A program made the translations under genes and the position numbers. Under the pieces are notes generated by a model. It did not search any database. It had not been told where the DNA came from and saw nothing but the letters and a program-made list of their open reading frames with translations. Positions 41,471-56,549 of a stretch of 64,000 bases of DNA are shown in pieces (within the stretch, counting starts at the first letter, position 1; every line of letters starts with the position of its first letter). Where the stretch lies: the NCBI RefSeq assembly GCF_002000055.1, contig NZ_MVBD01000005.1, positions 1-64,000 on the forward strand, given 5' to 3'. Source of the stretch: Marinicella sediminis. GTDB lineage: Bacteria > Pseudomonadota > Gammaproteobacteria > Xanthomonadales > Marinicellaceae.

Positions 41471-43825
41471 TCAGTGATTAGCCAGTTTGAGCCAGGTTTC
41501 AACCACCGTATCCGGGTTTAGCGAGACACTTTCGATACCCTGATCCATGAGCCATTCGGCCAAGTCTGGATGGTCTGAAGGGCCTTGTCCGCAAATGCCA
41601 ATGTATTTGCCACGTTTTTTACAGGCTGAAATGGCCATGGCCAACATTTTTTTCACGGCCGGGTCGCGCTCATCAAACAGGTCGGCGATCAGGCCTGAAT
41701 CCCGGTCAAGTCCGAGGGTCAATTGTGTCATGTCATTGGAGCCAATGGAAAAGCCGTCAAATATATCCAGAAACTCATCAGCCATCAATGCGTTCGATGG
41801 CAGTTCGCACATCATGATGATTTTCAGGCCGTTTTCGCCTTGCTTCAAACCAAACCTGGCCATCAGATCAATCACGCCCTGGCCTTCCTCAAGGGTGCGA
41901 ACAAATGGTACCATGGCCCATACATTGGTCAGTCCCATTTCGTCTCGGATGAACTTCAGGGCCTCACATTCCATTTGGAAACAATCCACAAAAGAGTCAT
42001 CCAGGTAACGGGACGCACCCCTAAAACCCAGCATTGGATTTTCTTCATGAGGCTCGAATGCTTGTCCGCCAATCAAATTGGCGTATTCATTGGATTTGAA
42101 ATCTGATAACCGAACGATCACCGGGCTGGGATTGAATGCAGCAGCCAGGGTGGAAATGCCCTCAGCCAACCGCTTAACAAAGTAGTCCCGGGGTGAGGCA
42201 TAGGCTGCTACCATCGGATCGGTGATGTTCCTTATTGACTCAGGTTGTTGATCATAATCCAGCAGAACTTTGGGGTGAATTCCGATCATGCGGTTGATGA
42301 TGAATTCCAGCCGGGCCAGACCAATGCCAAAATTAGGTAGATTTTGAAAGTCAAAAGCTCGGTCAGGATTGCCCACGTTCATCATGATTTTTAATGGCGC
42401 ATCCGGCATGTTTTCCAAATCTGTGGTCTTGATGTCAAAACCCATCAGCCCATCATACACATAACCGGTATCGCCTTCACAACATGACACGGTTACTTCA
42501 TTGTTGTGATTGATCTGGCTGGTGGCATCACCACAGCCAACGATGGCAGGTATACCCAATTCACGGGCAATGATGGCCGCATGGCAGGTTCTGCCACCTC
42601 GGTTGGTGACAATCGCAGCGGCTTTTTTCATGATTGGTTCCCAGTCAGGGTCGGTCATGTCTGTCACCAATACATCACCAGCGTTGATCTGGTCCATTTG
42701 TTGAATGCTCTTGATGACTTTGGCCACACCCTGGCCAACTTTTTGACCGATGCTGCGACCTTCGCAAATCACCTGACCGCGCTGTTGCAATGAGTAACGT
42801 TCAATTTTCTGGCCAACGGCTTCTCTGGATTTCACGGTTTCCGGTCTGGCCTGAACGATGTATAACTCGCCGGTCACACCATCTTTGGCCCATTCAATGT
42901 CCATGGGTCGGCCATAGTGTTGTTCAATGATCAGAGCTTGTCTGGCCAATTGTGTGACTTCATCATCAGTGATGGAGAACTGTTGGCTGCGTTGAGGTTC
43001 AATGTTCTGCGTCATGACACCCTCATCACCATAAACCATTTCAATGGCCTTTGAGCCCAGATTGCGGCGCAATACCGCTGGCTGATTGGCTTTGATGCCA
43101 GGCTTGTAGACGTAGAATTCATCGGGGTTAACCGCTCCCTGAACCACCATTTCACCCAAACCATAGGAACTGGTGATGAACACCACATCATTGAAGCCCG
43201 ATTCAGTGTCCATGGTAAACATCACGCCACTGGCAGCGATGTCTGAGCGAACCATTTGCTGGATACCTGCTGACAGATATACATCATCATGTTCAAAGCC
43301 ATGATGAACCCGATAAGAAATGGCGCGGTCATTGTATAACGAAGCAAACACCTCATGGGCTTTGCGCAGGATTTCATCGGCGCCGTGAACGTTGAGGAAT
43401 GTTTCCTGCTGGCCGGCAAAAGATGCGTCGGGTAAATCCTCTGCAGTGGCAGATGACCGAACAGCCACGGTGAAGTCAGTGCCCAAATCCTGTTTCATGG
43501 TCTCATAGGCATCACGAATCGCTTGTTCCAGGGGTGCCTGAAATGGAGTGTCAAGAATCCACCCTCTGATCAATTCTCCGGTTTGGCGCAACTGTTCTAT
43601 GTTGTCAGTGTCGAGGTCTTTGAGTTGTTGGCTGATTCTTTCATTCAGGCCAGAGGTTTGTAAAAACTCTTTGAAGGCATCTGCTGTGGTGGCAAAGCCG
43701 CCTGGTACCTTGACACCCAATGCGTTGAGGTGGGTAATCATTTCGCCAAGCGAGGCATTTTTGCCACCGACCTGCTCCAGGTGAGACATGTTCAATTGGT
43801 CAAGTTTGATGATGTATTCAGGCAT
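41471..43825 (-). CDS. ppsA: Phosphoenolpyruvate synthase
   Basis: 784 residues. Makes PEP from pyruvate and ATP in gluconeogenesis. N-terminal ATP-binding part with V-G-G-K-N-A-S-L-G-E-M; central phospho-histidine H415 in G-G-R-T-C-H-A-A-I-I-A, with T413 two residues before it as the expected target of PpsR; C-terminal PEP-binding barrel ending G-I-C-G-Q-G-P-S-D-H-P. The GGRTCH sequence is that of PEP synthase, not of PPDK. It diverges from ppsR, which regulates it. Confidence 0.96.
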   Translation of the reverse strand: MPEYIIKLDQLNMSHLEQVGGKNASLGEMITHLNALGVKVPGGFATTADAFKEFLQTSGLNERISQQLKDLDTDNIEQLRQTGELIRGWILDTPFQAPLEQAIRDAYETMKQDLGTDFTVAVRSSATAEDLPDASFAGQQETFLNVHGADEILRKAHEVFASLYNDRAISYRVHHGFEHDDVYLSAGIQQMVRSDIAASGVMFTMDTESGFNDVVFITSSYGLGEMVVQGAVNPDEFYVYKPGIKANQPAVLRRNLGSKAIEMVYGDEGVMTQNIEPQRSQQFSITDDEVTQLARQALIIEQHYGRPMDIEWAKDGVTGELYIVQARPETVKSREAVGQKIERYSLQQRGQVICEGRSIGQKVGQGVAKVIKSIQQMDQINAGDVLVTDMTDPDWEPIMKKAAAIVTNRGGRTCHAAIIARELGIPAIVGCGDATSQINHNNEVTVSCCEGDTGYVYDGLMGFDIKTTDLENMPDAPLKIMMNVGNPDRAFDFQNLPNFGIGLARLEFIINRMIGIHPKVLLDYDQQPESIRNITDPMVAAYASPRDYFVKRLAEGISTLAAAFNPSPVIVRLSDFKSNEYANLIGGQAFEPHEENPMLGFRGASRYLDDSFVDCFQMECEALKFIRDEMGLTNVWAMVPFVRTLEEGQGVIDLMARFGLKQGENGLKIIMMCELPSNALMADEFLDIFDGFSIGSNDMTQLTLGLDRDSGLIADLFDERDPAVKKMLAMAISACKKRGKYIGICGQGPSDHPDLAEWLMDQGIESVSLNPDTVVETWLKLANH

Positions 43826-43939
43826 GAATTTCCCTGTGGTTAAGAAAAGTGTTATATTCTATATGTTCATGGGATTGTCATAAACAATCTATTGAAAAAA
43901 AACCGTTAAACATGGTTACCCATATCAACAGAGGGATCA

Positions 43940-44761
43940 ATGAGCGAAAACAAACGTTGCGCTATATTTTATGTGTCAGACGGCACGGCCATCACTGCCG
44001 AAACCGTTGGCAGAAGTTTAATCACCCAGTTTACCGGCATAGACTTTATTGAAAAGCGATTGCCATTCATTAATGATGTGGAGACCGCTCAGGCAGCAGC
44101 GGCCATCATCAGAAACACCCCGTCCGATTTTCAGCAGCTGGTGATCAATACAGTGGTCGACCTTGAATTGCGGAAAATCATTCACTCCGCAGGTGGTCTT
44201 AAACTGGATCCATTCAACCGCCTGCTCAGGCGGATTGAAAACAACCTTGGGTTGAAGCGTGATCCCGGTGTGGGGCGGACTCACGGCATGTCGGACAGTA
44301 CCTCTTACAATGATCGCATTGAAGCCACCAATTTCGCCTTATCTCATGATGATGGTGTCAATCTGAATTTGCATCAGGCTGATTTGGTTTTATTGGGTGT
44401 TTCCCGTTCGGGCAAAACACCCACTTGTCTGTATCTGGCGCTGCATTATGGCTTAAAGGCGGCCAATTACCCCATCACCGATGATGACCTTGAGCGCATG
44501 CGTTTGCCAGCTGATGTAATGGCTCACAAAAATAAACTGTTTGGCCTGACCATCGACCCGTTTCGTTTGTCACAAATCAGGAGTGAGCGTCGCCCCAATT
44601 CCAGGTATGCTGAGCTGCGTAAATGTCAGGCAGAAGTGAGTGACGCTGAAATGATTTATCACCGCAACCAAATCCCTTTTTTGAACACAACTCTTACCTC
44701 AATTGAAGAAATTTCAGGTAAGATAATGATTGCATTGGATTTAAACAAGAAACTGTATTAA
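43940..44761 (+). CDS. ppsR: PEP synthase regulatory kinase/pyrophosphorylase
   Basis: 273 residues, DUF299/PSRP family. Inactivates PpsA by ADP-dependent phosphorylation of the threonine near the catalytic histidine and reactivates it by phosphorolysis. P-loop G-V-S-R-S-G-K-T at 153-160, followed by P-T-C-L-Y-L-A. GAGGGAT ribosome-binding site upstream. Divergent from ppsA, sharing a 114-bp control region, so effector and target sit side by side. Confidence 0.95.
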   Translation: MSENKRCAIFYVSDGTAITAETVGRSLITQFTGIDFIEKRLPFINDVETAQAAAAIIRNTPSDFQQLVINTVVDLELRKIIHSAGGLKLDPFNRLLRRIENNLGLKRDPGVGRTHGMSDSTSYNDRIEATNFALSHDDGVNLNLHQADLVLLGVSRSGKTPTCLYLALHYGLKAANYPITDDDLERMRLPADVMAHKNKLFGLTIDPFRLSQIRSERRPNSRYAELRKCQAEVSDAEMIYHRNQIPFLNTTLTSIEEISGKIMIALDLNKKLY

Positions 44762-45238
44762 ATGATTTTGACCGAACAATACTTGTCCCACAGGCAATAT
44801 GTACGCAGACACAACATCAGTTTGATGCAATTGCACGAGTTCAATCACCGGTTGATGGATCAATTGCTTCCGCAATCACTGTATCAGGGGCAAATCCTGC
44901 ATTCGCTCCTACCGGATAAGCCGGTGTTAAAGATGCTGTGTACCGAGCGGTTTAAGTACACCACGGAAGTGTCTATGCAGCTGCTTTTTCCCTACAGTCA
45001 GTCAGATGAATTGGTTATCCGTGTTTATCACGATGCCGGACTGGCTGAGTTGACTCATGCCAATGAATTTGAACGACAATACCGGGCGCTCGGTGGTCGT
45101 GTTGATGCGGCCAATCAGGCCAGTCTTCGCTACAGTCAAAACTGTTTTCTCAACAAATGGTTGATATTTTTACTGGAAAAAGGTCACGGCAAAAGCAATT
45201 GGCAATCGCCGGTTGTGCAGCCAGATCTGACGCCTTGA
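44762..45238 (+). CDS. DUF1249 family protein (YqiB-like)
   Basis: 158 residues, starting on the base after the ppsR stop. Similar in length and key segments (L-M-Q-L-H-E-F-N, V-I-R-V-Y-H-D-A-G-L-A-E-L) to the DUF1249 proteins such as E. coli YqiB. No catalytic motif. In E. coli the family gene sits with nudF/cpdA; here it is coupled to ppsR. Function unknown. Confidence 0.75.
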   Translation: MILTEQYLSHRQYVRRHNISLMQLHEFNHRLMDQLLPQSLYQGQILHSLLPDKPVLKMLCTERFKYTTEVSMQLLFPYSQSDELVIRVYHDAGLAELTHANEFERQYRALGGRVDAANQASLRYSQNCFLNKWLIFLLEKGHGKSNWQSPVVQPDLTP

Positions 45239-45256: not shown

Positions 45257-47029
45257 ATGAAACCAACTGATATTTCCGATCCAGATTATTTCCATAAAGT
45301 GGTCGATTGCCAATATGCTTGTCCGGCACACACGCCAGTACCTGAATACATCCGCCTCATTGCGGCCGGCAGGTACAACGATGCTTATATGATCAACTGG
45401 CAATCCAATGTTTTTCCGGGTGTCCTGGGCAGAACCTGTGACCGGCCTTGTGAACCGGCCTGCCGCCGTGGCCGCATTGAAGAAGAGCCGGTGGCCATCT
45501 GTCGCTTAAAGCGGGTGGCTGCTGACAATAAAACCGACATCAGTGACCGCCTTCCAGATATCCCGACTGAGAAGAATGGCAAAAAAGTGGCTTTGATTGG
45601 GGCCGGTCCGGCTTCACTGACTGTGGCCCGGGATTTGATGCCGTTGGGATATGCAATCGATTTATATGATGATCAGCGCAAAGGCGGTGGCTTCATGCGC
45701 AGTCAGATACCTTCATTCCGCTTGCCTGAATCGGTGTTAGACGAAGAAGTTAATTACATCCTCGATATGGGGGTGGTTACCCATTTTAACCAGACTGTTA
45801 CCAGCATGAAAGACATGCTTGGCAAAGGTTATGATGCCATCTTTGTGGGTACCGGAGCACCAAGGGGGCGTGATTTGCCAAACTTGCCTGGGCGTGAAGA
45901 AGGTGATGCCAACATCCACATCGGTATTGACTGGTTGGCCAATGTGGCGTTTGAGCACATCAGCCGGATTGGCAAGAAGGTGTTGGTACTGGGTGGTGGA
46001 AACACGGCGATGGACTGTTGCCGGACAGCCAAGAGGCTGGGCGGAGAAGATGTTCGGGTGGTGGTCAGAAGTCCCAAAGCTGAGATGAAGGCATCTCCAT
46101 GGGAAATTGAAGACGCCGAACACGAAGACATTCCAATGTATGAAAACCATAATCCCAAAGCCTTTGTCACTGAAAATGGCCGGCTGACTGGTATGCTCTT
46201 TGAACGGGTTGAACCGGTGTTTGATGACCGCGGCAAGCGCACCCTGGAACCCACGGGTGAAGAGGTGTTCATGGCATGTGATGATGTCTTAATGGCCATC
46301 GGTCAGTTGAATTCATTCCCCTGGATCGAACGGGACATCGGGATTGAATTCAATGACTGGGACATGCCTGAAGTGGATAAAACCACATTCCAGACTTCAG
46401 TGCCTGAAGTTTTTGTGGGTGGTGATGCAGCCTGGGGCCCGGAAAATGTCATCACCGCAGTGGCGCATGGTCATCAGGCGGCCATATCAATACATCACTT
46501 GTGTGAAGGCAAGTCAACGACTGACCGACCGGGACCAGAGGTCAATCTGATGAGTCAGAAAATGGGATTTCATGACTGGCTGTATGATGCCCACATCTCT
46601 GATGATGACCGTCATGTGGTGGCATTAATTGACAAGCAAAAAGCCCTTTCAGACCGTAAACTCGAAGTGGAAAAAGGTTTTGACCCGTTACAGGGGTATG
46701 ATGAGGCCATGCGTTGTCTGAATTGTGATGTACAAACGGTGTTTGATAAAGACCGGTGCATTGAATGTGATGCTTGTGAAGACATTTGTCCCGTAGACTG
46801 TATCAACTTCACAGACAACGATGAAGAGGATTTGTTGCGGGATAAACTGAAAGTCAAAGCCACCAACAAAGATCAGGATCTGTATGTTTCTGATGCGCTC
46901 AAAACCAAACGGGTGATGGTCAAAGATGAAAATGTGTGCCTGCATTGTGGCCTGTGTGCCGAACGGTGCCCGACAGGAGCCTGGGATATGCAGAAATTCT
47001 TATTACACGAAGCCACAGCGGGTAAATGA
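45257..47029 (+). CDS. GltD-like NAD(P)/FAD oxidoreductase with C-terminal 2[4Fe-4S] ferredoxin domain
   Basis: 590 residues from the ATG at 45257 (a TTG at 45242 is the earlier option). N-terminal Fe-S region with C18, C22, C61, C65, C69; FAD motif L-I-G-A-G-P-A-S (113-120); NAD(P) motif L-G-G-G-N-T-A-M-D (245-253). This is the core of glutamate synthase small subunits. Added at the end are two clusters, C501-x2-C504-x2-C507-x3-C511-P and C561-x2-C564-x2-C567-x3-C571-P. No glutamate synthase large subunit is nearby; instead the gene overlaps the 2-oxoacid oxidoreductase alpha gene by 4 bp. Inference: it passes electrons between that complex and NAD(P). Confidence 0.85.
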   Translation: MKPTDISDPDYFHKVVDCQYACPAHTPVPEYIRLIAAGRYNDAYMINWQSNVFPGVLGRTCDRPCEPACRRGRIEEEPVAICRLKRVAADNKTDISDRLPDIPTEKNGKKVALIGAGPASLTVARDLMPLGYAIDLYDDQRKGGGFMRSQIPSFRLPESVLDEEVNYILDMGVVTHFNQTVTSMKDMLGKGYDAIFVGTGAPRGRDLPNLPGREEGDANIHIGIDWLANVAFEHISRIGKKVLVLGGGNTAMDCCRTAKRLGGEDVRVVVRSPKAEMKASPWEIEDAEHEDIPMYENHNPKAFVTENGRLTGMLFERVEPVFDDRGKRTLEPTGEEVFMACDDVLMAIGQLNSFPWIERDIGIEFNDWDMPEVDKTTFQTSVPEVFVGGDAAWGPENVITAVAHGHQAAISIHHLCEGKSTTDRPGPEVNLMSQKMGFHDWLYDAHISDDDRHVVALIDKQKALSDRKLEVEKGFDPLQGYDEAMRCLNCDVQTVFDKDRCIECDACEDICPVDCINFTDNDEEDLLRDKLKVKATNKDQDLYVSDALKTKRVMVKDENVCLHCGLCAERCPTGAWDMQKFLLHEATAGK

Positions 47030-48855
47030 TGAACAACATAACAGCAACCAATGATTTCGTGATCCGTTTTGCCAATGTCAACGGGTCTGGCTCTGCATCG
47101 GCCAACAATCTATTCAGTAAAGCGGTGTTTAGGCTGGGTGTGCCGGTTGCCGCGAAAAACATATTTCCATCCAATATACAGGGCCTGCCTACCTGGTTTG
47201 AAGTTCGCATCAGTGAGCAGGGCTACCTTGGAAGACGAGGCGGGTATGATTTTGTGGTGGCAGTCAATGGACAAACCATGGTCAGGGATTACCAGGAGTT
47301 ATTGCCAGGAGGGTATTTTTTTTATGACTCCTCAAAACGATTGCCAGATACTTTTACCCGGGAAGACATCACCCTGATCGGAATCCCATTGACAGACATC
47401 TGTAATGCTCATTATACCGAACCCCGCTTGCGGCAAATATTCAAAAACATCATTTATGTGGGCGCATTGGCCTACCTTTTTGAAATGGACTTCACTGTCT
47501 TCGAGGACTCGATCAAATCACAGTTTGCCAAAAAAGCCAAATTAATAGAGCCGAACATCAAAGCATTGAGGCTGGGTTTTGATTATGCAGAAGAACACCA
47601 CAAGGCTTGTTGTGGGCTGAACATTCACCGCAGAGACCTGAATGGCGACCAAATCATGATGGAGGGCAATGCAGCAGCTGGTCTGGGTGCGGTTTTTGCC
47701 GGAGCAACGGTGGCTGGCTGGTACCCTATCACCCCATCCACATCAGTGGTAGAGGCGTTTGAAAAGTATTGCAAAGCCTACCGGGTTGACGAACAAAGCG
47801 GGCAGAACAAATTTGCCATCCTGCAGGCTGAAGATGAATTGGCCGCGATCGGTATCGTGATTGGTGCCAGTTGGAATGGGGCCCGGGCATTTACTGCCAC
47901 GTCAGGTCCGGGGGTTTCGTTGATGAGCGAATTTTTGGGATTGGCTTATTTTTCTGAGATTCCGGTGATGTTGATGGATATTCAACGTACCGGGCCGAGT
48001 ACGGGCATGCCTACCAGGACTCAGCAATCTGATTTGCTGGCTGCTGCCTATGCCTCACATGGAGATACCAAAAATGTGTTGTTGTTTCCAGCGGATCCAA
48101 CCGAATGTTTTGCCCATACAGTGATTGGCTTTGATCTGGCTGAACGCTTACAAACCCCGGTTATTCTGATGAGCGATCTGGATTTGGGGATGAATGTTCA
48201 CCAGTGTGATCCCATCAACTGGGACGATGATTACACCTATGATCGGGGCAAGGTGCTTACTGAAGAGCAACTGGAGCATCTCGGCGAGCGCTGGGGTCGT
48301 TATCTGGATGTGGATGGGGACGGTATTCCATATCGTACAATTCCTGGAACACACCCTGAAAAGGGCGCCTTTTTCACCCGTGGATCATCCCATGATGAAT
48401 ACGCTGCATACACAGAAGATGGCACCGTTTATGCCCGCGGTATGGAGCGTCTGCTGGTCAAATGGGACACTGCCAAGACCCTGGTTCCAAAGGCAGATGT
48501 CTCAGGTCAATCGGCTTCTGTTGGAGTGATTTATTATGGCACCAGTGCCTGGTCTGCTGATGAAGCATTGGAAACACTCAGAACAACCCATGACATTGAT
48601 GCCATGCGCATCAAAGCCTTCCCGTTTGGTGTAGAAGTCAGGGAGTTCATTGAAGCACATGATACCTTGTTTGTGATTGAGCAAAACCGTGACGCGCAAA
48701 TGAAAACTTTGTTGGTCAACGAACTTTCTGTTGACCCCAATCAGTTTGTTGAAGTGCTCAATATAGATGGAATGCCCATCACTGCCAGCTACCTGGTTGA
48801 ATCCATCAACCGGCAATTGGCAGACGTTCAATCCACCGTGCCCAGGGAGGCCTGA
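47026..48855 (+). CDS. 2-oxoacid:acceptor oxidoreductase, fused gamma-alpha subunit
   Basis: 609 residues. The first 190 are the gamma domain (F-A-N-V-N-G-S-G-S-A-S-A-N-N-L-F, then R-R-G-G-Y-D). Residues of about 208-600 are the alpha subunit, with W-Y-P-I-T-P-S-T-S-V-V-E (232-243), T-S-G-P-G-V-S-L-M-S-E and Q-R-T-G-P-S-T-G-M-P-T-R-T. This is the KorA/OorA-like layout with gamma fused in front, acting on 2-oxoglutarate or a related 2-oxoacid with CoA. The substrate cannot be fixed from sequence. Coupled to genes on both sides. Confidence 0.9.
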   Translation: MMNNITATNDFVIRFANVNGSGSASANNLFSKAVFRLGVPVAAKNIFPSNIQGLPTWFEVRISEQGYLGRRGGYDFVVAVNGQTMVRDYQELLPGGYFFYDSSKRLPDTFTREDITLIGIPLTDICNAHYTEPRLRQIFKNIIYVGALAYLFEMDFTVFEDSIKSQFAKKAKLIEPNIKALRLGFDYAEEHHKACCGLNIHRRDLNGDQIMMEGNAAAGLGAVFAGATVAGWYPITPSTSVVEAFEKYCKAYRVDEQSGQNKFAILQAEDELAAIGIVIGASWNGARAFTATSGPGVSLMSEFLGLAYFSEIPVMLMDIQRTGPSTGMPTRTQQSDLLAAAYASHGDTKNVLLFPADPTECFAHTVIGFDLAERLQTPVILMSDLDLGMNVHQCDPINWDDDYTYDRGKVLTEEQLEHLGERWGRYLDVDGDGIPYRTIPGTHPEKGAFFTRGSSHDEYAAYTEDGTVYARGMERLLVKWDTAKTLVPKADVSGQSASVGVIYYGTSAWSADEALETLRTTHDIDAMRIKAFPFGVEVREFIEAHDTLFVIEQNRDAQMKTLLVNELSVDPNQFVEVLNIDGMPITASYLVESINRQLADVQSTVPREA

Positions 48856-48856
48856 C

Positions 48857-49909
48857 ATGACTTTTATCCGACCCAATTTCAGACATCCGGAACTGAGCAC
48901 CAATGCCATCGGTCAATCCATCAAAAGCTATGAAGGCGCATTGTCTACTTTGTGTGCCGGCTGTGGCCATGATTCCATCAGTGCAGCAATCATTAAATCT
49001 TGTTTTGACCTCAATTTGCAACCGCATAAAATCGCCAAAATTTCAGGCATCGGCTGTTCTTCGAAAACCCCAACATACTTTCTGGGCAAAGCCCATGGTT
49101 TCAACTCGGTTCACGGGCGCATGCCATCGGTGACCACCGGAGCCAATATGGCTAACCGTGATTTGCTCTATATAGGGGTTTCGGGGGATGGGGACACCGC
49201 ATCAATTGGTATGGGCCAGTTTGCGCATGTGGTCAGAAGAAACCTCAATATGGTCTATATCGTCATGAACAATGGTTGTTATGGCTTGACCAAGGGTCAG
49301 GACTCAGCCACTGCGGACAAGGGTTCTGCCAGTAAAAAAGGCGTTCCCAGTGTGTTTGATTCCATTGATTTGTGCCAGTTGGCATTGCAGCTGGGAGCTG
49401 GCATGGTGGCCAGAAGTTTTTCCGGCGACAAACATCAGTTGATTCCATTGATCAAGGCGGCCATCAGACATCCTGGATTTGCCTTCATTGATGTGGTTTC
49501 CCCATGTGTGACCTTCAACAATACGCCGGCATCTACCAAAGGCTATGAATGGGTCAGGGATCATTTGGAGGCCACCGGTACCATTGATTTTATTCCGGCA
49601 AAATCAGAAATTACCATCGATTACCCGCCAGGCACCAGCCGTCAGGTCGAATTGCATGATGGCAGTGAATTGGTGCTGCAAAAGAATGCTGAAGATTACG
49701 ATCTGAGCAGCCGCAAAGCTGCGATGAACCGCATCGAAGCAGTCAGGGAACAACAACACATCCTCACTGGATTGATTTATCACAATGAGTCGGCAGCTGA
49801 CACACATGGGCTGATCAATACAGTCAGGCAGCCACTGAATGAATTGTCACAGCAAACATTGTGTCCTGGTTCTGGGGTGCTGGATTCGTTGAATGAGTCC
49901 CTGAGGTGA
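48857..49909 (+). CDS. 2-oxoacid:acceptor oxidoreductase beta subunit (TPP-binding)
   Basis: 350 residues from the ATG at 48857, with AGGGAGG just upstream and 1 bp after the alpha stop; a frame start at 48767 would overlap alpha by 89 bp without a site. Fe-S cysteines C33 and C36 (L-C-A-G-C-G-H-D), I-G-C-S-S-K-T-P, and the TPP motif V-S-G-D-G-D-T-A-S-I-G followed by M-N-N. The last 80 residues extend past the usual core and contain no recognised domain. It has no own ferredoxin domain; the GltD-like subunit supplies one. Confidence 0.9.
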   Translation: MTFIRPNFRHPELSTNAIGQSIKSYEGALSTLCAGCGHDSISAAIIKSCFDLNLQPHKIAKISGIGCSSKTPTYFLGKAHGFNSVHGRMPSVTTGANMANRDLLYIGVSGDGDTASIGMGQFAHVVRRNLNMVYIVMNNGCYGLTKGQDSATADKGSASKKGVPSVFDSIDLCQLALQLGAGMVARSFSGDKHQLIPLIKAAIRHPGFAFIDVVSPCVTFNNTPASTKGYEWVRDHLEATGTIDFIPAKSEITIDYPPGTSRQVELHDGSELVLQKNAEDYDLSSRKAAMNRIEAVREQQHILTGLIYHNESAADTHGLINTVRQPLNELSQQTLCPGSGVLDSLNESLR

Positions 49910-50688
49910 GCTTGGATAAACATTATTTTTATCAGCATGCGGTACAGTGTGTTGAGGCAGAAATTGATTTTGTTGAAGCAACCTTTCAGGAGTTGAAAGG
50001 CAGACCAGCCCGGACTTTGCGTGAAGATTTTTGTGGTACCGCACAAACCGCTTGTGAGTGGATTGGCCGCAATAAGGCCAACCAGGCTTGGGCGGTTGAT
50101 CTGGACCCGCTGGTTTTACAGTGGGGTATGGATCATAATGTTTCATCGCTGGATGAAAGCCAACAACAGCGAATTGTGTTGCTCAATGAGAATGTCATGG
50201 CGGTTTCTGCACCAGCCGTGGATGCAGTTCTGGCCATGAATTTCAGCTACTTTATTTTTATGGACAGGCCAACAATGATTCGTTATTTCGCCAGTGTCAG
50301 GGAATCACTCAAAGATGACGGGGTGTTCTTTCTGGATGCTTTTGGCGGGTATGAAGCGGCCAAAGAAGTGAGGGAAGAGCGTGAGTGTGATGGTTTCACC
50401 TATATTTGGGAGCAAGCCAGTTTCAACCCAATCAATTCGCAGATGCAATGTTACATTCATTTTGTCACTGATGAAGGGATAAAGATGGACCGGGCATTTT
50501 CATATTACTGGCGGTTGTGGACCTTGCCTGAAATCACGGGTATGCTGCTTGAGGCTGGTTTTACCACTGCGGAAGTTTACTGGGAAGGAACCGATGATGA
50601 GACCGGCGAGGGAGATGGGGTTTATACCTCTTCACGTGAAGGCACGGCTGATGCAGCCTGGGTATGCTATTTGGTTGCTGAAAAATAG
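49906..50688 (+). CDS. Class I SAM-dependent methyltransferase
   Basis: 260 residues, GTG start overlapping the beta-subunit stop (GTGA). A Rossmann methyltransferase by the pattern R-E-D-F-C-G-T-A-Q-T-A (motif I-like), A-V-D-L-D-P (acidic end of strand 2) and F-S-Y-F-I-F. The glycine-rich loop is unusual (D-F-C-G-T-A in place of D-x-G-x-G-x-G). Substrate unknown. Coupling to the oxidoreductase genes suggests co-expression, not necessarily shared function. Confidence 0.75.
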   Translation: MSLDKHYFYQHAVQCVEAEIDFVEATFQELKGRPARTLREDFCGTAQTACEWIGRNKANQAWAVDLDPLVLQWGMDHNVSSLDESQQQRIVLLNENVMAVSAPAVDAVLAMNFSYFIFMDRPTMIRYFASVRESLKDDGVFFLDAFGGYEAAKEVREERECDGFTYIWEQASFNPINSQMQCYIHFVTDEGIKMDRAFSYYWRLWTLPEITGMLLEAGFTTAEVYWEGTDDETGEGDGVYTSSREGTADAAWVCYLVAEK

Positions 50689-50708: not shown

Positions 50709-51104
50709 TTATTCGGATAAGGTTTTGATGTCTTTTCTGAGGTTTTCTTTCTCTTTGATGTTCAATTCAATGGTGCGCTTTAATATGGCAAAGCTGTCCA
50801 TATCGATTTGAGTCCATTCTGCACCAAATGTCTCGCCATTGGAGTGAATCACCTCAATGTTCATGATGATGGCTGGAGAATTGTCCACAGGTATACTGAG
50901 GCGTAATAAGTCGCCTGATTTAAGCACGTGTTCTTTGGGGCAACTCAGCAAAGCGCCTTTCAAAGATAAATCATGAATGTGCGAAGTCCAGCACTGCATG
51001 CCCGTATACAAAGTCACTTCCTTTCTGACGGGAATGCGGGTGAATCTTCTTCGATCAACTTGGTTGTCTGTGCTCATGTTTTGAATTGTATCTGTATTGT
51101 TCAT
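50709..51104 (-). CDS. PilZ domain protein
   Basis: 131 residues, a single PilZ domain. Both c-di-GMP contact motifs are present: R-R-R-F-T-R (residues 18-23) and D-L-S-L-K-G (about 45-50). The last 35 residues are a charged helix. Expected to bind cyclic di-GMP and change partner activity (motility or attachment); the partner is not visible, although fimV in the same window is linked to surface motility in related bacteria. Confidence 0.85.
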   Translation of the reverse strand: MNNTDTIQNMSTDNQVDRRRFTRIPVRKEVTLYTGMQCWTSHIHDLSLKGALLSCPKEHVLKSGDLLRLSIPVDNSPAIIMNIEVIHSNGETFGAEWTQIDMDSFAILKRTIELNIKEKENLRKDIKTLSE

Positions 51105-51169
51105 CTGTGCAACCTAAACATCAGAATATTATTCCATTATAGACCGATCATTGATTGAAAAATGTGAAC

Positions 51170-51964
51170 TCAGTACAGTAAATCAGTCAGGTATTCTGCT
51201 AATCCCTGATAGGCTTCTGTATCAACCTCGATAAAGCCGTCACTGTTGAGTTCGGCGAGGATGTCGTATGACTCATCATCCTCTCCAATTGACAGAATGG
51301 CATTTTTAAATGATTCACGTAATTGGGGACTGGTGTTGGGAGAGGCCAGAAACGTCAGACCCGGTATTTTTTTACTTTCCTGCAGTGTGGCAAAGTTGGG
51401 ATACAGGTCAAACAATGAGCTGGGGATGATGGCGGCATCAGCAGACTGAGCAAACACTTGTTCAATCACGTCTTCCCAGGATAAGGCGGTGACAATCTTT
51501 TGGGGTTGTAAGAACAAATCTGTGAACCACTCATCGAACAGCATTGAGCCCATGTTGGGATTGGGTAAAGTCACCACTCGGTTACCCACCAGAAATTCGG
51601 CCACGGTCTGACCTTCGGCTGGCTCAAAGTTGGATATCAGGTGATAAGAGATGTCCTCCTGTACCCTGGCCAGTGGGATGTAGTTTTTTTCCTGCATGCG
51701 GTAAGCTGCAATGTGGGATGCATCCAGGGTGAACTCAGGCTCATTGTTTTTGGCGGCCCGCCAATAAAAATAGTAGTTGTCAGCGCTCTCAATCTGTACA
51801 TCAAGACCCGTTTTTTTCTCCAGCCAGTTTTTCAGCGGTTCATAAACGTATTCCGCCTGATCTTTGGGGTACACCGCTTCTACAGCCAGGGTCACAGTCT
51901 GTGCCAGGGCGTGTTGAGCAAACAGGAAAAGAGCGGCCAATATGCAGATTTGAGTTTTTTTCAT
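51170..51964 (-). CDS. PhnD-like periplasmic substrate-binding protein
   Basis: 264 residues from the ATG at 51964, with GGTGGGA upstream and a signal peptide ending A-L-A-Q. The mature part matches the phosphate/phosphonate-binding PhnD-like fold: V-T-L-A-V-E-A-V-Y-P then a P-L-K-N-W-L-E-K-K-T-G-L-D-V segment, D-A-S-H-I-A-A-Y and N-P-N-M-G-S. No ABC permease or ATPase gene is adjacent, so it is an orphan that may sense rather than import a ligand. Confidence 0.75.
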   Translation of the reverse strand: MKKTQICILAALFLFAQHALAQTVTLAVEAVYPKDQAEYVYEPLKNWLEKKTGLDVQIESADNYYFYWRAAKNNEPEFTLDASHIAAYRMQEKNYIPLARVQEDISYHLISNFEPAEGQTVAEFLVGNRVVTLPNPNMGSMLFDEWFTDLFLQPQKIVTALSWEDVIEQVFAQSADAAIIPSSLFDLYPNFATLQESKKIPGLTFLASPNTSPQLRESFKNAILSIGEDDESYDILAELNSDGFIEVDTEAYQGLAEYLTDLLY

Positions 51965-52127
51965 TGAATGTCCCACCATTAATGTTTAACTGTAATACTT
52001 ATCTATACTAGCATGATATTTAAGATTATTAAACGTAAATAAATGCCGTCATTCTATATTTGTCAAGGTTTTAGACAGTAAAATTGTTTAATTTTCTTTG
52101 ATGGGATTCAAAAAAACGGAAAATGAC

Positions 52128-53205: not shown

Positions 53206-53589
53206 ATGAGCAATCCGAACCGCCCGCTGTCTCCACATTTGCAGGTCTATAAACCCCAGCTGACATCCATGTTGTCGATAGCACATCGGCTCACTGGCAT
53301 GGTGCTGGCCGCAGGTGTGGTGGTTTTTACCATTTGGCTTTACTTGGTCACCACGCAGGCAGCCGCTGCTGATCAGTTGGCTGCGTTTTTTGCCCAGGGC
53401 CTGGGTGCCGTGCTGTTGTTTGCCTGGCTGTTTACCTTCAATTACCATTTGTGTAATGGCATCAGGCATCTGTTCTGGGACGCGGGTAAGGGTTATGACA
53501 TTCCTACAGTTTATAAAACCGGTACACTGGTGATCATTGTCGCTGTGTTGTTGACTGCGGGTGAAATCTATTGGGGGTATGTATCATGA
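53206..53589 (+). CDS. sdhC: Succinate dehydrogenase cytochrome b556 subunit
   Basis: 127 residues, three transmembrane helices. Start R-P-L-S-P-H-L-Q-V-Y and S-M-L-S-I-A-H-R-L-T-G (quinone-site Ser/Arg region), then H-L-C-N-G-I-R-H-L-F-W-D with the haem-ligand histidine. Anchors complex II and binds ubiquinone. Preceded by CGGAG; overlaps sdhD by 4 bp. Confidence 0.95.
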   Translation: MSNPNRPLSPHLQVYKPQLTSMLSIAHRLTGMVLAAGVVVFTIWLYLVTTQAAAADQLAAFFAQGLGAVLLFAWLFTFNYHLCNGIRHLFWDAGKGYDIPTVYKTGTLVIIVAVLLTAGEIYWGYVS

Positions 53590-53963
53590 GTTACCGATCT
53601 GATTTGGGTAAAGTGAAAGGCCTGGGTACGGCCAAACATGGTTTTAAACACTGGTGGATGCAGCGCATGACAGCGGTATTGCTGATTCCAACCGGATTGT
53701 TTGTGCTGATCAGTCTGCTGCGCATGGATGGTGTCACAGCAGCTCAAATGCTCGGCTGGATGGCGCAACCCCTCAATGCCATTGTGTTGTTGTTATTCAC
53801 CCTTACCGCCAGTTACCACGGAGCGCTGGGCTTGCAGGTGGTTGTCGAGGATTATGTCGGCAGTCACAGCTGGCAATTGATTCTGCAGTACCTGATTAAA
53901 CTCAGTATGATCATTTTGATGATGGTCAATATTTACGCTGTTTCTACCGTATTATTTGGATAA
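53586..53963 (+). CDS. sdhD: Succinate dehydrogenase membrane anchor subunit
   Basis: 125 residues from the ATG at 53586, inside the sdhC stop (ATGA). Three transmembrane segments; start S-D-L-G-K-V-K-G-L-G-T-A-K-H-G and the Y-H-G-A-L-G-L-Q-V-V-V-E-D-Y motif with the haem-side histidine are typical of the SdhD form found in Xanthomonas, alphaproteobacteria and mitochondria. Confidence 0.93.
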   Translation: MSYRSDLGKVKGLGTAKHGFKHWWMQRMTAVLLIPTGLFVLISLLRMDGVTAAQMLGWMAQPLNAIVLLLFTLTASYHGALGLQVVVEDYVGSHSWQLILQYLIKLSMIILMMVNIYAVSTVLFG

Positions 53964-53966
53964 ATC

Positions 53967-55754
53967 ATGACTAAAGCATACAACATTACCGAACATAAAT
54001 TTGACGCCATCGTGGTGGGCGCCGGCGGTGCCGGTCTCAGGGCCACCATGGGGCTGGCCACCAAAGGCTTGTCAACTGCCTGTATCACCAAGGTTTTTCC
54101 AACCCGGTCTCATACCGTGGCGGCACAGGGTGGTATGTCTGCTTCACTGGGCAACATGGGTGAAGATGATTGGCGTTGGCATATGTACGACACCATCAAA
54201 GGGTCTGACTGGCTGGGTGATCAGGATGCCATCGAATACATGTGCAGAGAAGCTGTCCCTTCGGTGATTGAGCTCGAGCATTACGGCGTGCCGTTTTCGC
54301 GCACCGAAGACGGCAAAATCTACCAGCGTCCTTTTGGCGGAATGACCACCAATTTTGGTGAAGGTACTGCTCAGCGCACATGTGCAGCTGCGGACCGGAC
54401 CGGGCATGCCATTTTACACACCCTTTATCAGCAATCACTGAAACATGACGCTTCATTCTTTATTGAATACTTTGCCATTGATCTGGTGATGGAAAATGGT
54501 GAATGCAAAGGGGTGCTGGCCTGGAACCTGGCTGACGGAACGTTGCACCTGTTCAGAGGTCAGGCTGTGATTCTGGCGACAGGTGGTTATGGCAGGGCTT
54601 ATTTTTCCTGTACTTCAGCACACACCTGCACCGGTGATGGTAATGCCATGGTTCTGCGTGCTGGCTTGCCTTTGCAAGATATGGAATTTGTCCAGTTTCA
54701 TCCGACCGGTATATATGGTGCCGGTTGTCTGATCACCGAAGGAGTGCGTGGTGAAGGCGGGTTTTTGACCAATTCAAAGGGTGAGCGATTCATGGAACGT
54801 TACGCGCCCAACGCCAAAGATCTGGCTTCTCGTGATGTGGTTTCCCGCTCAATGACCATCGAAATCCGTGAAGGTCGTGGGGTGGGCAATGAGGCAGACC
54901 ATATTCATTTGCATCTGGAACACCTGGGTGCCGATGTGATCAACAAACGCCTGCCCGGTATTGCAGAATCAGCGGAGATTTTTGCGGGAGTGGATGTGGC
55001 CAAAGAACCCATACCAGTGTTGCCAACGGTACATTACAACATGGGTGGTATCCCAACCAATTACCACGGTGAAGTGGTCAATAAAGTGGGTGATAACCCG
55101 GATCAGGTTGTACCTGGATTATTTGCCATTGGTGAAGCGGCATGTGTCTCTGTACACGGGGCCAACCGATTGGGCTCAAACTCATTGCTGGATTTGATTG
55201 TGTTTGGCCGGGCCGTGGCCAACCGATGTGCTGAAATCATCAAGCCAGGTGCTAATCAGCGGGAATTGCCCGAAGGCATTCTGGATCGTTCATTGAGCGA
55301 CTTGGACGCTGCAAGATATGCCAATGGTTCCATACCAACGGCGGAGTTGCGTCTGGAAATGCAAAAGGTCATGCAGAACAACGCAGCGGTCTTCAGAACC
55401 GGTGAAGTACTGCAGGAAGGCTGTGAGAAAATCACCGCCACCGCAGCAAAAATGGCAGACCTCAAAGTCAGTGATCAATCCATGGTGTGGAACACTGATT
55501 TGGTCGAAGCACTGGAGTTAAGAAACCTGATGGATCAGGCCAAAGTCACCATGTTTTCAGCAGAAAACCGCAAAGAGTCCCGTGGTGCACATGCCCGCGA
55601 AGATTACCCTGATCGAAACGATGACGAGTGGATGAAACACACCCTGGCATATTTGAATGAACAGGGTAAGGTTGAATTTGATTACCGACCGGTGCACATG
55701 AATACACTGACCGATGAGTGCGAAGTGATTCCACCCAAGCAACGAGTTTACTAG
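53967..55754 (+). CDS. sdhA: Succinate dehydrogenase flavoprotein subunit
   Basis: 595 residues. Oxidises succinate to fumarate. FAD motif V-V-G-A-G-G-A-G (16-23), covalent FAD histidine H49 in [10 protein letters not shown], active-site H-P-T-G-I, G-V-R-G-E-G-G and the C-terminal [12 protein letters not shown]. Flavination should need SdhE, encoded three genes on. Confidence 0.97.
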
Positions 55755-55763
55755 AGGATTATC

Positions 55764-56549
55764 ATGGCAGAATTCAGATTACCCAAAAATTCAAAAGTCA
55801 AAAAAGGCAATCATCACAAAGCCACCAATGCTGGCAAGACAACCACCTTCAAAGTCTATCGCTGGTCACCGGATGACAATGAAAATCCGAGAACAGACAC
55901 CTATGAGGTGGACCTGGATAATTGTGGTCCTATGGTGTTGGATGGTTTGATCAAAATCAAAGACGAAATGGATGCCACATTGACCTTTCGCCGATCTTGC
56001 CGGGAAGGTATCTGTGGATCATGTGCGATGAACATCAATGGCACCAATACACTGGCCTGTACGACATCCATCAAACAATTCAAAGGTAAGGAAATTGCCA
56101 TCTATCCGTTGCCTCATATGGAGGTGATCAAGGACCTGGTGCCTGACCTGAGTCACTTTTACGCGCAATATGCTTCCATCAAACCATGGATGCAGACTGA
56201 CTCAGTACCGTTACCTGATAAAGAGCGCCTGCAATCGATTGAAGATCGTGAAAAACTGGATGGATTGTATGAATGCATTTTGTGTGCCTGTTGTCAGACT
56301 TCATGTCCCAGTTATTGGTGGAACGGTGATCGCTATTTAGGACCTGCTGTGTTGTTACAGTCATATCGTTGGCTGGCAGATTCCCGGGATGAATATACCG
56401 GAGAGCGTCTGGAAGAGTTGGAAGATCCTTTTAAGGTGTATCGCTGTCATACCATCATGAATTGTGCCAACACCTGCCCCAAAGGGCTAAACCCAGGAAA
56501 AGCGATTGGTGAAATCAAGAAAATGATTGCCCAGAGGCATGCTTTGTAA
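55764..56549 (+). CDS. sdhB: Succinate dehydrogenase iron-sulfur subunit
   Basis: 261 residues. Three clusters: [2Fe-2S] with C79, C84, C87, C99; [4Fe-4S] in [12 protein letters not shown]; [3Fe-4S] in [12 protein letters not shown]. Carries a basic N-terminal extension of about 25 residues, as in the alphaproteobacterial and mitochondrial forms. sdhE starts on the next base after its stop. Confidence 0.97.

Follow-up and report, generated by a model that had tools for sequence, protein, structure and literature searches.

Does the four-gene run at positions 45257-50688 of a DNA stretch from the gammaproteobacterium Marinicella sediminis encode one enzyme that passes electrons from a 2-oxoacid directly to NAD(P), and which of its genes belong to that enzyme? 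The stretch, called the window below, is the whole 64,000 nucleotides that we analysed (contig NZ_MVBD01000005.1, assembly GCF_002000055.1, forward strand) and comes from a genome of 3.99 Mb that is 98% complete. The four genes specify a GltD-like iron-sulphur (Fe-S) flavoprotein (FP), the fused gamma-alpha subunit and the beta subunit of a 2-oxoacid:acceptor oxidoreductase, and a methyltransferase-like protein (Table 1). An initial annotation, made from the sequence alone, had described four tightly spaced genes and inferred a single complex linking coenzyme A (CoA)-dependent 2-oxoacid oxidation to NAD(P). The spacing is as described, with a 4-bp overlap between FP and gamma-alpha, a 1-bp gap between gamma-alpha and beta and a 4-bp overlap between beta and the methyltransferase-like gene (-4, +1 and -4 bp), and none of the four reading frames contains an internal stop. 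The core idea, one NAD(P)-linked 2-oxoacid enzyme, is likely to be right as well, being supported by gene linkage, by invariant cofactor ligands and by a purified precedent. FP, gamma-alpha and beta (hereafter the cassette) very likely yield one enzyme, and this enzyme is quite probably a 2-oxoacid:NAD(P)+ oxidoreductase, soluble and of the kind represented by the KGOR of Azoarcus evansii.

Conservation of the three-gene cassette

A scan for FP yielded at least 598 pattern stretches and at least 591 confirmed relatives, the best 80 of which were taken as loci; the closest among these are five records named Marinicella, with 85-90% identity. The gamma-alpha gene starts no more than 400 bp after FP in 78 of the 80 loci, the exceptions being L018, where 1186 bases downstream hold no gamma-alpha match, and L030, where 3.6 kb lie in between. 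Of the loci, 65 extend for 3.1 kb or more downstream, and 64 of these have all three genes, in the order FP-gamma-alpha-beta as judged from coordinates, with a 0.75-kb gap ahead of beta in L027. Because the set is repeated in 64/65 testable loci its recurrence exceeds chance, and the neighbourhood comparison proposed with the initial annotation thus finds the three genes kept together. These figures also bear on a reading of FP as a glutamate synthase small subunit that lies here fortuitously. FP does match GltD-family models, but its scores fall far below the curated cut-offs (TIGR01316, 258.1 against 471.75 bits; TIGR01318, 208.9 against 482.95 bits), and it is gamma-alpha that follows it, so that we regard this reading as having a negligible chance of being correct. 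The initial annotation had named a position mostly beside gltB-like genes as evidence against itself; the neighbour within 400 bp in 78/80 loci is gamma-alpha, a count made without a direct search for gltB.

At a threshold of E <= 1e-100, FP was detected in 14 of 184 genomes of a class sample, in 29 of 41 relatives and in 20 of 299 genomes of a phylum sample, the last figure possibly being an underestimate as at most four candidates per genome were scored. The FP-positive sets overlap, with G000 in all three and G075 and G217 in two. In 13 of the 14 FP-positive class genomes FP and gamma-alpha lie on the same strand within about 120 bp, and in the fourteenth (G144) they are on different contigs. 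This scattered distribution of FP suggests loss or transfer. Copies of FP that are 66-70% identical to the proteobacterial one in the window also occur in five metagenome-assembled genomes among the loci (L016, L018, L021, L030 and L076), whose labels are Lewinellaceae, Weeksellaceae, Bacteroidetes, Flavobacteriia and Bacillota; mis-binning or transfer is possible for these. Clustering of open reading frames (ORFs) over 94 loci, many of which stop at contig edges, recovered the three cassette genes in 84, 74 and 66 loci and, at the coarse resolution of naive ORF calling and connected components, no other partner as widespread. The next clusters, in 16, 12 and 8 loci, resemble antisense frames by eye, one in 7 loci resembles an ABC-type ATPase, also by eye, and others occur in 5 to 7 loci.

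Domain architecture and proposed electron path

In Pfam terms FP combines Fer4_20, Pyr_redox_2 and Fer4_7, the last confirming the C-terminal 2[4Fe-4S] domain of the initial annotation. The gamma-alpha subunit contains POR (PF01558) followed by POR_N (PF01855), which is the one POR_N match in the source genome, and passes the TIGR03710 cut-off (564.7 against 482.75 bits). The beta subunit matches TPP_enzyme_C, and its best NCBIfam model, PorB_KorB, scores 201.2 bits, below the cut-off of 261.9. The domain search lists no ferredoxin family for either gamma-alpha or beta, in agreement with what had been claimed for them. The ligands expected of such an enzyme are conserved throughout: 1) the eight C-terminal ferredoxin cysteines of FP are invariant in 81/81 rows; 2) the four cluster cysteines of beta are invariant in 65/65 rows; 3) the Thr of the YPITP motif (T236) and the carboxylate Arg (R321) of gamma-alpha are invariant in 71/71 rows.

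From the observed gene order, domains, conserved ligands and co-conservation we infer complex formation, an electron path, a substrate and a direction. The beta subunit, with thiamine pyrophosphate (TPP) and one [4Fe-4S] cluster, would together with gamma-alpha decarboxylate the 2-oxoacid and form the CoA thioester. Two electrons would then pass, one at a time, from the beta cluster to the built-in ferredoxin domain of FP, and from there by way of the two clusters of GltD type to FAD, which would deliver a hydride to NAD(P)+. In this manner the ferredoxin domain within FP would stand in for the free ferredoxin of KorAB enzymes. A different division of labour is conceivable, in which an ordinary ferredoxin-linked KorAB is accompanied by an operon-encoded ferredoxin:NAD(P) reductase, and electrons travel via free ferredoxin with which FP exchanges them. 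Free ferredoxin does serve the StOFOR enzymes that have no ferredoxin domain (PMC5020499, in excerpt), FP resembles the large subunits of Nfn and StnC in a fold search, and the available part of PMC8163825, where the A. evansii enzyme is cited as a means to regenerate reduced ferredoxin, ties that enzyme to ferredoxin reduction. We nevertheless consider this arrangement unlikely, as FP has its own 2[4Fe-4S] domain in every row and the tight linkage of the three genes exceeds the needs of a general ferredoxin reductase.

A GltD-type iron-sulphur motif probably split between two parts of FP

The initial annotation stated that FP keeps the N-terminal Fe-S motifs, and this stands in part. Six N-terminal cysteines (C18, C22, C61, C65, C69 and C82) are present in each of the 81 rows, as is H13. 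The Fer4_20 match at the N-terminus, however, covers only profile positions 31-109, no cysteine precedes C18, and the GltD/NfnB motif is there without its first two cysteines. Their counterparts appear in the linker, about 470 residues downstream of the N-terminal segment and ahead of the ferredoxin tail, where residues 470-494 match Fer4_20 positions 7-31 (E 0.012, below the Pfam cut-off) and C487 and C490 are invariant in 81/81 rows. Linker pieces from relatives, tried as a fixed piece in 10 of the 80 loci, match Fer4_20 (positions 6/7 to 30/31) in 9 of 10 cases with E 0.00024-0.08, all below the Pfam cut-off; the piece from L080 gave no match, but the L080 protein is longer and its motif may lie outside a fixed piece.

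The cluster ligands of NfnB are Cys39, 42, 47 and 100 for the distal cluster and Cys51, 90, 96 and Glu117 for the proximal one (PMC7596348, in excerpt). Read from alignments to P. furiosus NfnI rather than to the T. maritima protein, C18, C22, C61, C65 and C69 of FP occupy the positions of NfnB Cys47, 51, 90, 96 and 100. Because the linker matches the missing part of Fer4_20 and both of its cysteines are invariant, we propose C487 and C490 as the two remaining ligands of the distal cluster of FP, and C82 could be an additional proximal ligand. The best fold matches of FP are StnC (8oh5_C) and the NfnABC large subunits (9bov_A, 9n5u_A), with Z of 37.7-39.7 and above the NfnB group, in lists that are filled mainly by the Rossmann core and with the whole of FP, not its tail by itself, as the query. 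Alignments to these proteins begin at residues 16-19 and end at residues 577-582. A structure predicted for FP from an alignment of the window protein and 39 of the 80 loci has a mean pLDDT of 76.2, with residues 6-27, 64-79, 426-450, 491-500 and 562-590 below 50. StnC has a cysteine pair, RCLEC, at the equivalent linker place in a sequence alignment with FP. As it also heads the fold matches, together with the NfnABC large subunits, the split motif is probably common to these solved proteins and not new.

The kinship of FP with subunits of bifurcating complexes raises the question of whether the cassette could itself encode an electron-bifurcating enzyme, or a reductive carboxylase running in reverse, as the initial annotation had entertained. 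R155 of FP is invariant and aligns with StnC R239, the counterpart of the FAD-site Arg (R201) of the bifurcating NfnB; StnC, however, retains this Arg although its FAD does not bifurcate, and the residue is not decisive because it is kept in both proteins (PMC10482914, in excerpt). K85 of FP, present in 81/81 rows, aligns with StnC K170 and with the Glu of P. furiosus NfnI. K170 is seen at the proximal cluster of StnC, in the place that Glu takes in NfnB (same excerpts). Because the cassette includes no gene for a second flavin subunit, non-bifurcating electron transfer is the better reading. Reduction by NAD(P)H alone would, by known potentials, be steeply uphill. Given the missing second flavin gene and the Lys in place of the NfnB Glu, we regard bifurcation or reductive carboxylation as highly improbable.

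Substrate and electron acceptor

The substrate residues of StOFOR1 map, as read from alignments, to S49, T326, S/T454, K70 and L144 of the cassette subunits, with R321 and T236 at the carboxylate. Changing K49 of the StOFOR1 beta subunit to Ile abolishes 2-oxoglutarate activity, and the pyruvate-specific DaPFOR has Ile at this position (PMC5020499, in excerpt). The equivalent residue here is K70 of beta, found in 65/65 rows; its retention therefore favours 2-oxoglutarate or broad substrate use. We take 2-oxoglutarate to be the most likely substrate. The chief alternative is that the main substrate is something else, either a broad range or pyruvate, a branched-chain or another 2-oxoacid. StOFOR1 accepts both pyruvate and 2-oxoglutarate, and the pocket here is the same as its own at S49, T326, K70 and L144; moreover, the ordinary 2-oxoglutarate dehydrogenase subunit SucA is already encoded in 48 of the 49 FP-positive genomes examined, including the source genome (see below). 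K70 is nonetheless kept where DaPFOR has Ile, and 2-oxoglutarate is what the known NAD(P)-linked relative acts on; we accordingly rate this alternative as a real but lesser possibility.

Several points weigh against a KGOR-like enzyme with 2-oxoglutarate as substrate and NAD(P) as direct acceptor: 1) Changing D468 of the StOFOR1 alpha subunit to Ala abolishes 2-oxoglutarate activity, and this position is Ser/Thr454 here (S in 22 and T in 49 of 71 rows), though it is Leu in the 2-oxoglutarate-specific KorAB of Hydrogenobacter (PMC5020499, in excerpt). 2) In NfnB and DsrL-2 the use of NADP goes with the motif YRR (PMC7596348, in excerpt), and at its place FP has V270-R271-S272 in 81/81 rows, of which R271 is invariant, like K278 further on, so that the YRR rule does not predict NADP. 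3) All 80 loci were picked by likeness to FP, and the linkage holds for this FP subfamily only. 4) The likeness to A. evansii KGOR was judged from published descriptions, and orthology to the purified enzyme is putative. 5) The available part of PMC8163825 assigns a ferredoxin role to the A. evansii relative, which is thus no plain ferredoxin-free enzyme and may act with both ferredoxin and NADP. We give the acceptor as NAD(P), since the YRR rule would not class VRS as NADP-type, yet the name of the A. evansii enzyme specifies NADP+.

Relation to SucA

SucA was called above the TIGR00239 cut-off. The source genome has one full SucA, and the protein is found in 146 of the 184 class-sample genomes overall, in 13 of the 14 FP-positive ones among them and in all 35 further FP-positive genomes, that is in 48/49. 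Among the 29 FP-positive relatives the count covers G000 and 18 others, and leaves out G185, G188, G191, G192, G193, G194, G195, G198, G206 and G215. The initial annotation had asked whether sucAB accompanies the cassette, and for sucA, the one of the two genes searched, the answer is that it does. Because SucA co-occurs in 48/49 FP-positive genomes the cassette is a second route, usually alongside the ordinary dehydrogenase, and a role as a replacement of SucA is rejected on the same count. The sole FP-positive genome in that count without a SucA match, G158, is a single contig of 1.2 Mb that is 97% complete, with FP and gamma-alpha adjacent at C1:769597-773192, and here the cassette may be the sole 2-oxoglutarate oxidising route.

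Comparison with known systems

Ebenau-Jehle, Boll and Fuchs (2003) reportedly purified from A. evansii a 2-oxoglutarate:NADP+ oxidoreductase with three subunits of 66, 62 and 38 kDa. The cassette subunits (65.9, 67.5 and 37.7 kDa) are similar in size to these. The KGOR-alpha of A. evansii falls in a clade of GltD-like proteins (PMC10134865, in excerpt), and in both systems a GltD-like NAD(P) subunit accompanies a 2-oxoacid oxidoreductase, known in the present case as genes. Direct coupling to NAD(P), which is probable here, is not new, given the GltD-like subunit of the A. evansii enzyme; the remark in the initial annotation that pointed to a lack of characterised examples is therefore not supported, at least for the part of the locus without the methyltransferase, for which A. 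evansii KGOR is the precedent. The A. evansii enzyme differs in being linked to anaerobic aromatic ring reduction (PMC8163825, in excerpt). For the cassette a role in benzoyl-CoA reduction was rejected, the source genome having no match to the BcrAD_BadFG family.

Among solved structures the nearest to gamma-alpha is chain 6n2n_A and the nearest to beta are 5b48_B and 6n2n_B. The gamma-alpha/beta enzyme of entries 6n2n/6n2o, which we take to be the Magnetococcus 2-oxoacid:ferredoxin oxidoreductase that uses free ferredoxin, and StOFOR1/2 (5b46-5b48) have related alpha and beta chains with identical beta cluster cysteines, but no FP-like chain is among the matches. StOFOR differs further in having free ferredoxin as its partner (PMC5020499, in excerpt). 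StnC aligns with FP in the linker cysteine pair, and it has a Lys at the proximal cluster (PMC10482914, in excerpt), whereas the partners of StnC and of the NfnABC large subunits are bifurcating modules and not a 2-oxoacid oxidoreductase. DsrL has the same domain order, with a linker and a C-terminal 2[4Fe-4S] domain, but its partner is DsrAB. The definition of DsrL in the available text of PMC7596348 excludes, under its third criterion, GltD-like genes immediately linked to subunits of pyruvate/ketoisovalerate:ferredoxin oxidoreductase, and FP is so linked in 78/80 loci. As such genes were there set aside, the arrangement had been noticed before. A literature search found no account of the cassette in aerobic bacteria, most subscription papers being beyond its reach.

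The methyltransferase-like gene and the surroundings of the cassette

The fourth gene, proposed in the initial annotation as a further partner, gives only weak methyltransferase matches, below Pfam cut-offs. It is present in 28 of the 41 relatives, including five without an FP match at the threshold above (G203, G205, G207, G212 and G214), and in others lies elsewhere, for instance 36 kb off in G202 and 86 kb in G184. Of the 29 FP-positive relatives, 10 have it adjoining the cassette, as judged from coordinates, and these (G000, G186, G187, G188, G190, G191, G194, G196, G197 and G200) all belong to the same genus as the window. In G193 and G198 FP and the gene are on different contigs of fragmented assemblies, which may make them untestable, and in G192 the gene was not found. 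Among the 80 loci it occurs in five (L003-L007), all close to the window, and it is not nearby in M. pacifica (L009). This patchy adjacency and the FP-negative carriers lead us to reject it as a fourth subunit; it is probably a passenger and not a component of the enzyme.

Table 1. Positions of the cassette genes, of segments of FP and of the fourth gene in the window
Feature	Position	Strand	Details
FP, GltD-like NAD(P)H/FAD iron-sulphur flavoprotein	45257..47029	+	ATG, 590 aa, 65.9 kDa
N-terminal Fe-S segment of FP, residues 18-82	45308..45502	+	C18, C22, C61, C65, C69, C82
FP linker segment, residues 470-494, RCLNC (C487, C490)	46664..46738	+	matches Fer4_20 positions 7-31
FP C-terminal 2[4Fe-4S] ferredoxin domain, residues 500-575	46754..46981	+	CxxCxxCxxxC at 501-511, 561-571
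Fused gamma-alpha subunit, 2-oxoacid:acceptor oxidoreductase (TIGR03710)	47026..48855	+	ATG, 609 aa, 67.5 kDa
Beta subunit with TPP domain and a single [4Fe-4S] site (C33, C36, C67, C217)	48857..49909	+	ATG, 350 aa, 37.7 kDa
Divergent class I methyltransferase-like gene	49906..50688	+	GTG, 260 aa

Upstream, a DUF1249 gene (44762-45238, + strand) ends 18 bp before FP and abuts a gene on the same strand that we take to be ppsR-like, and presumably a phosphoenolpyruvate synthase-like gene on the minus strand lies just upstream, the three occupying 41471-45238. Since FP follows so closely on the DUF1249 gene, which itself abuts the ppsR-like gene, the transcription start of the cassette may be further upstream than FP. 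Five of the 80 loci (L003-L007) have the ppsR and DUF1249 genes ahead of the cassette. Downstream, on the minus strand at 50709-51979, a PilZ-domain gene adjoins a gene for a periplasmic phosphonate-binding-type protein (PF12974), and what we take to be sdhCDAB-like genes (53206-56549) start about 3.3 kb past the beta gene. The order sdh-suc is a familiar one; it is not seen here, because sucA lies on contig C43, separate from that of the sdhCDAB-like genes.

Implications

The cassette probably adds a further instance of a known enzyme type, with A. evansii KGOR as its precedent, and the partnership with a methyltransferase is not supported. Its most specific description, which we put forward tentatively and would not favour over all others, is that of a lipoate-independent, ferredoxin-free second 2-oxoglutarate dehydrogenase, coupled to NAD(P)+, in SucA-containing and largely aerobic Pseudomonadota, working through a flavoprotein with a split GltD-type Fe-S domain whose distal cluster is completed by two linker cysteines. 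Pseudomonadota with the cassette usually have SucA too and so seem to hold two routes for the oxidation of 2-oxoglutarate, or of a related 2-oxoacid, one through the lipoate-dependent dehydrogenase and the other through an Fe-S enzyme. Should 2-oxoglutarate be the substrate, electrons would be misplaced in genome-based models that take account of SucAB alone, and likewise in those that read these genes as a ferredoxin-linked KorAB or as glutamate synthase.

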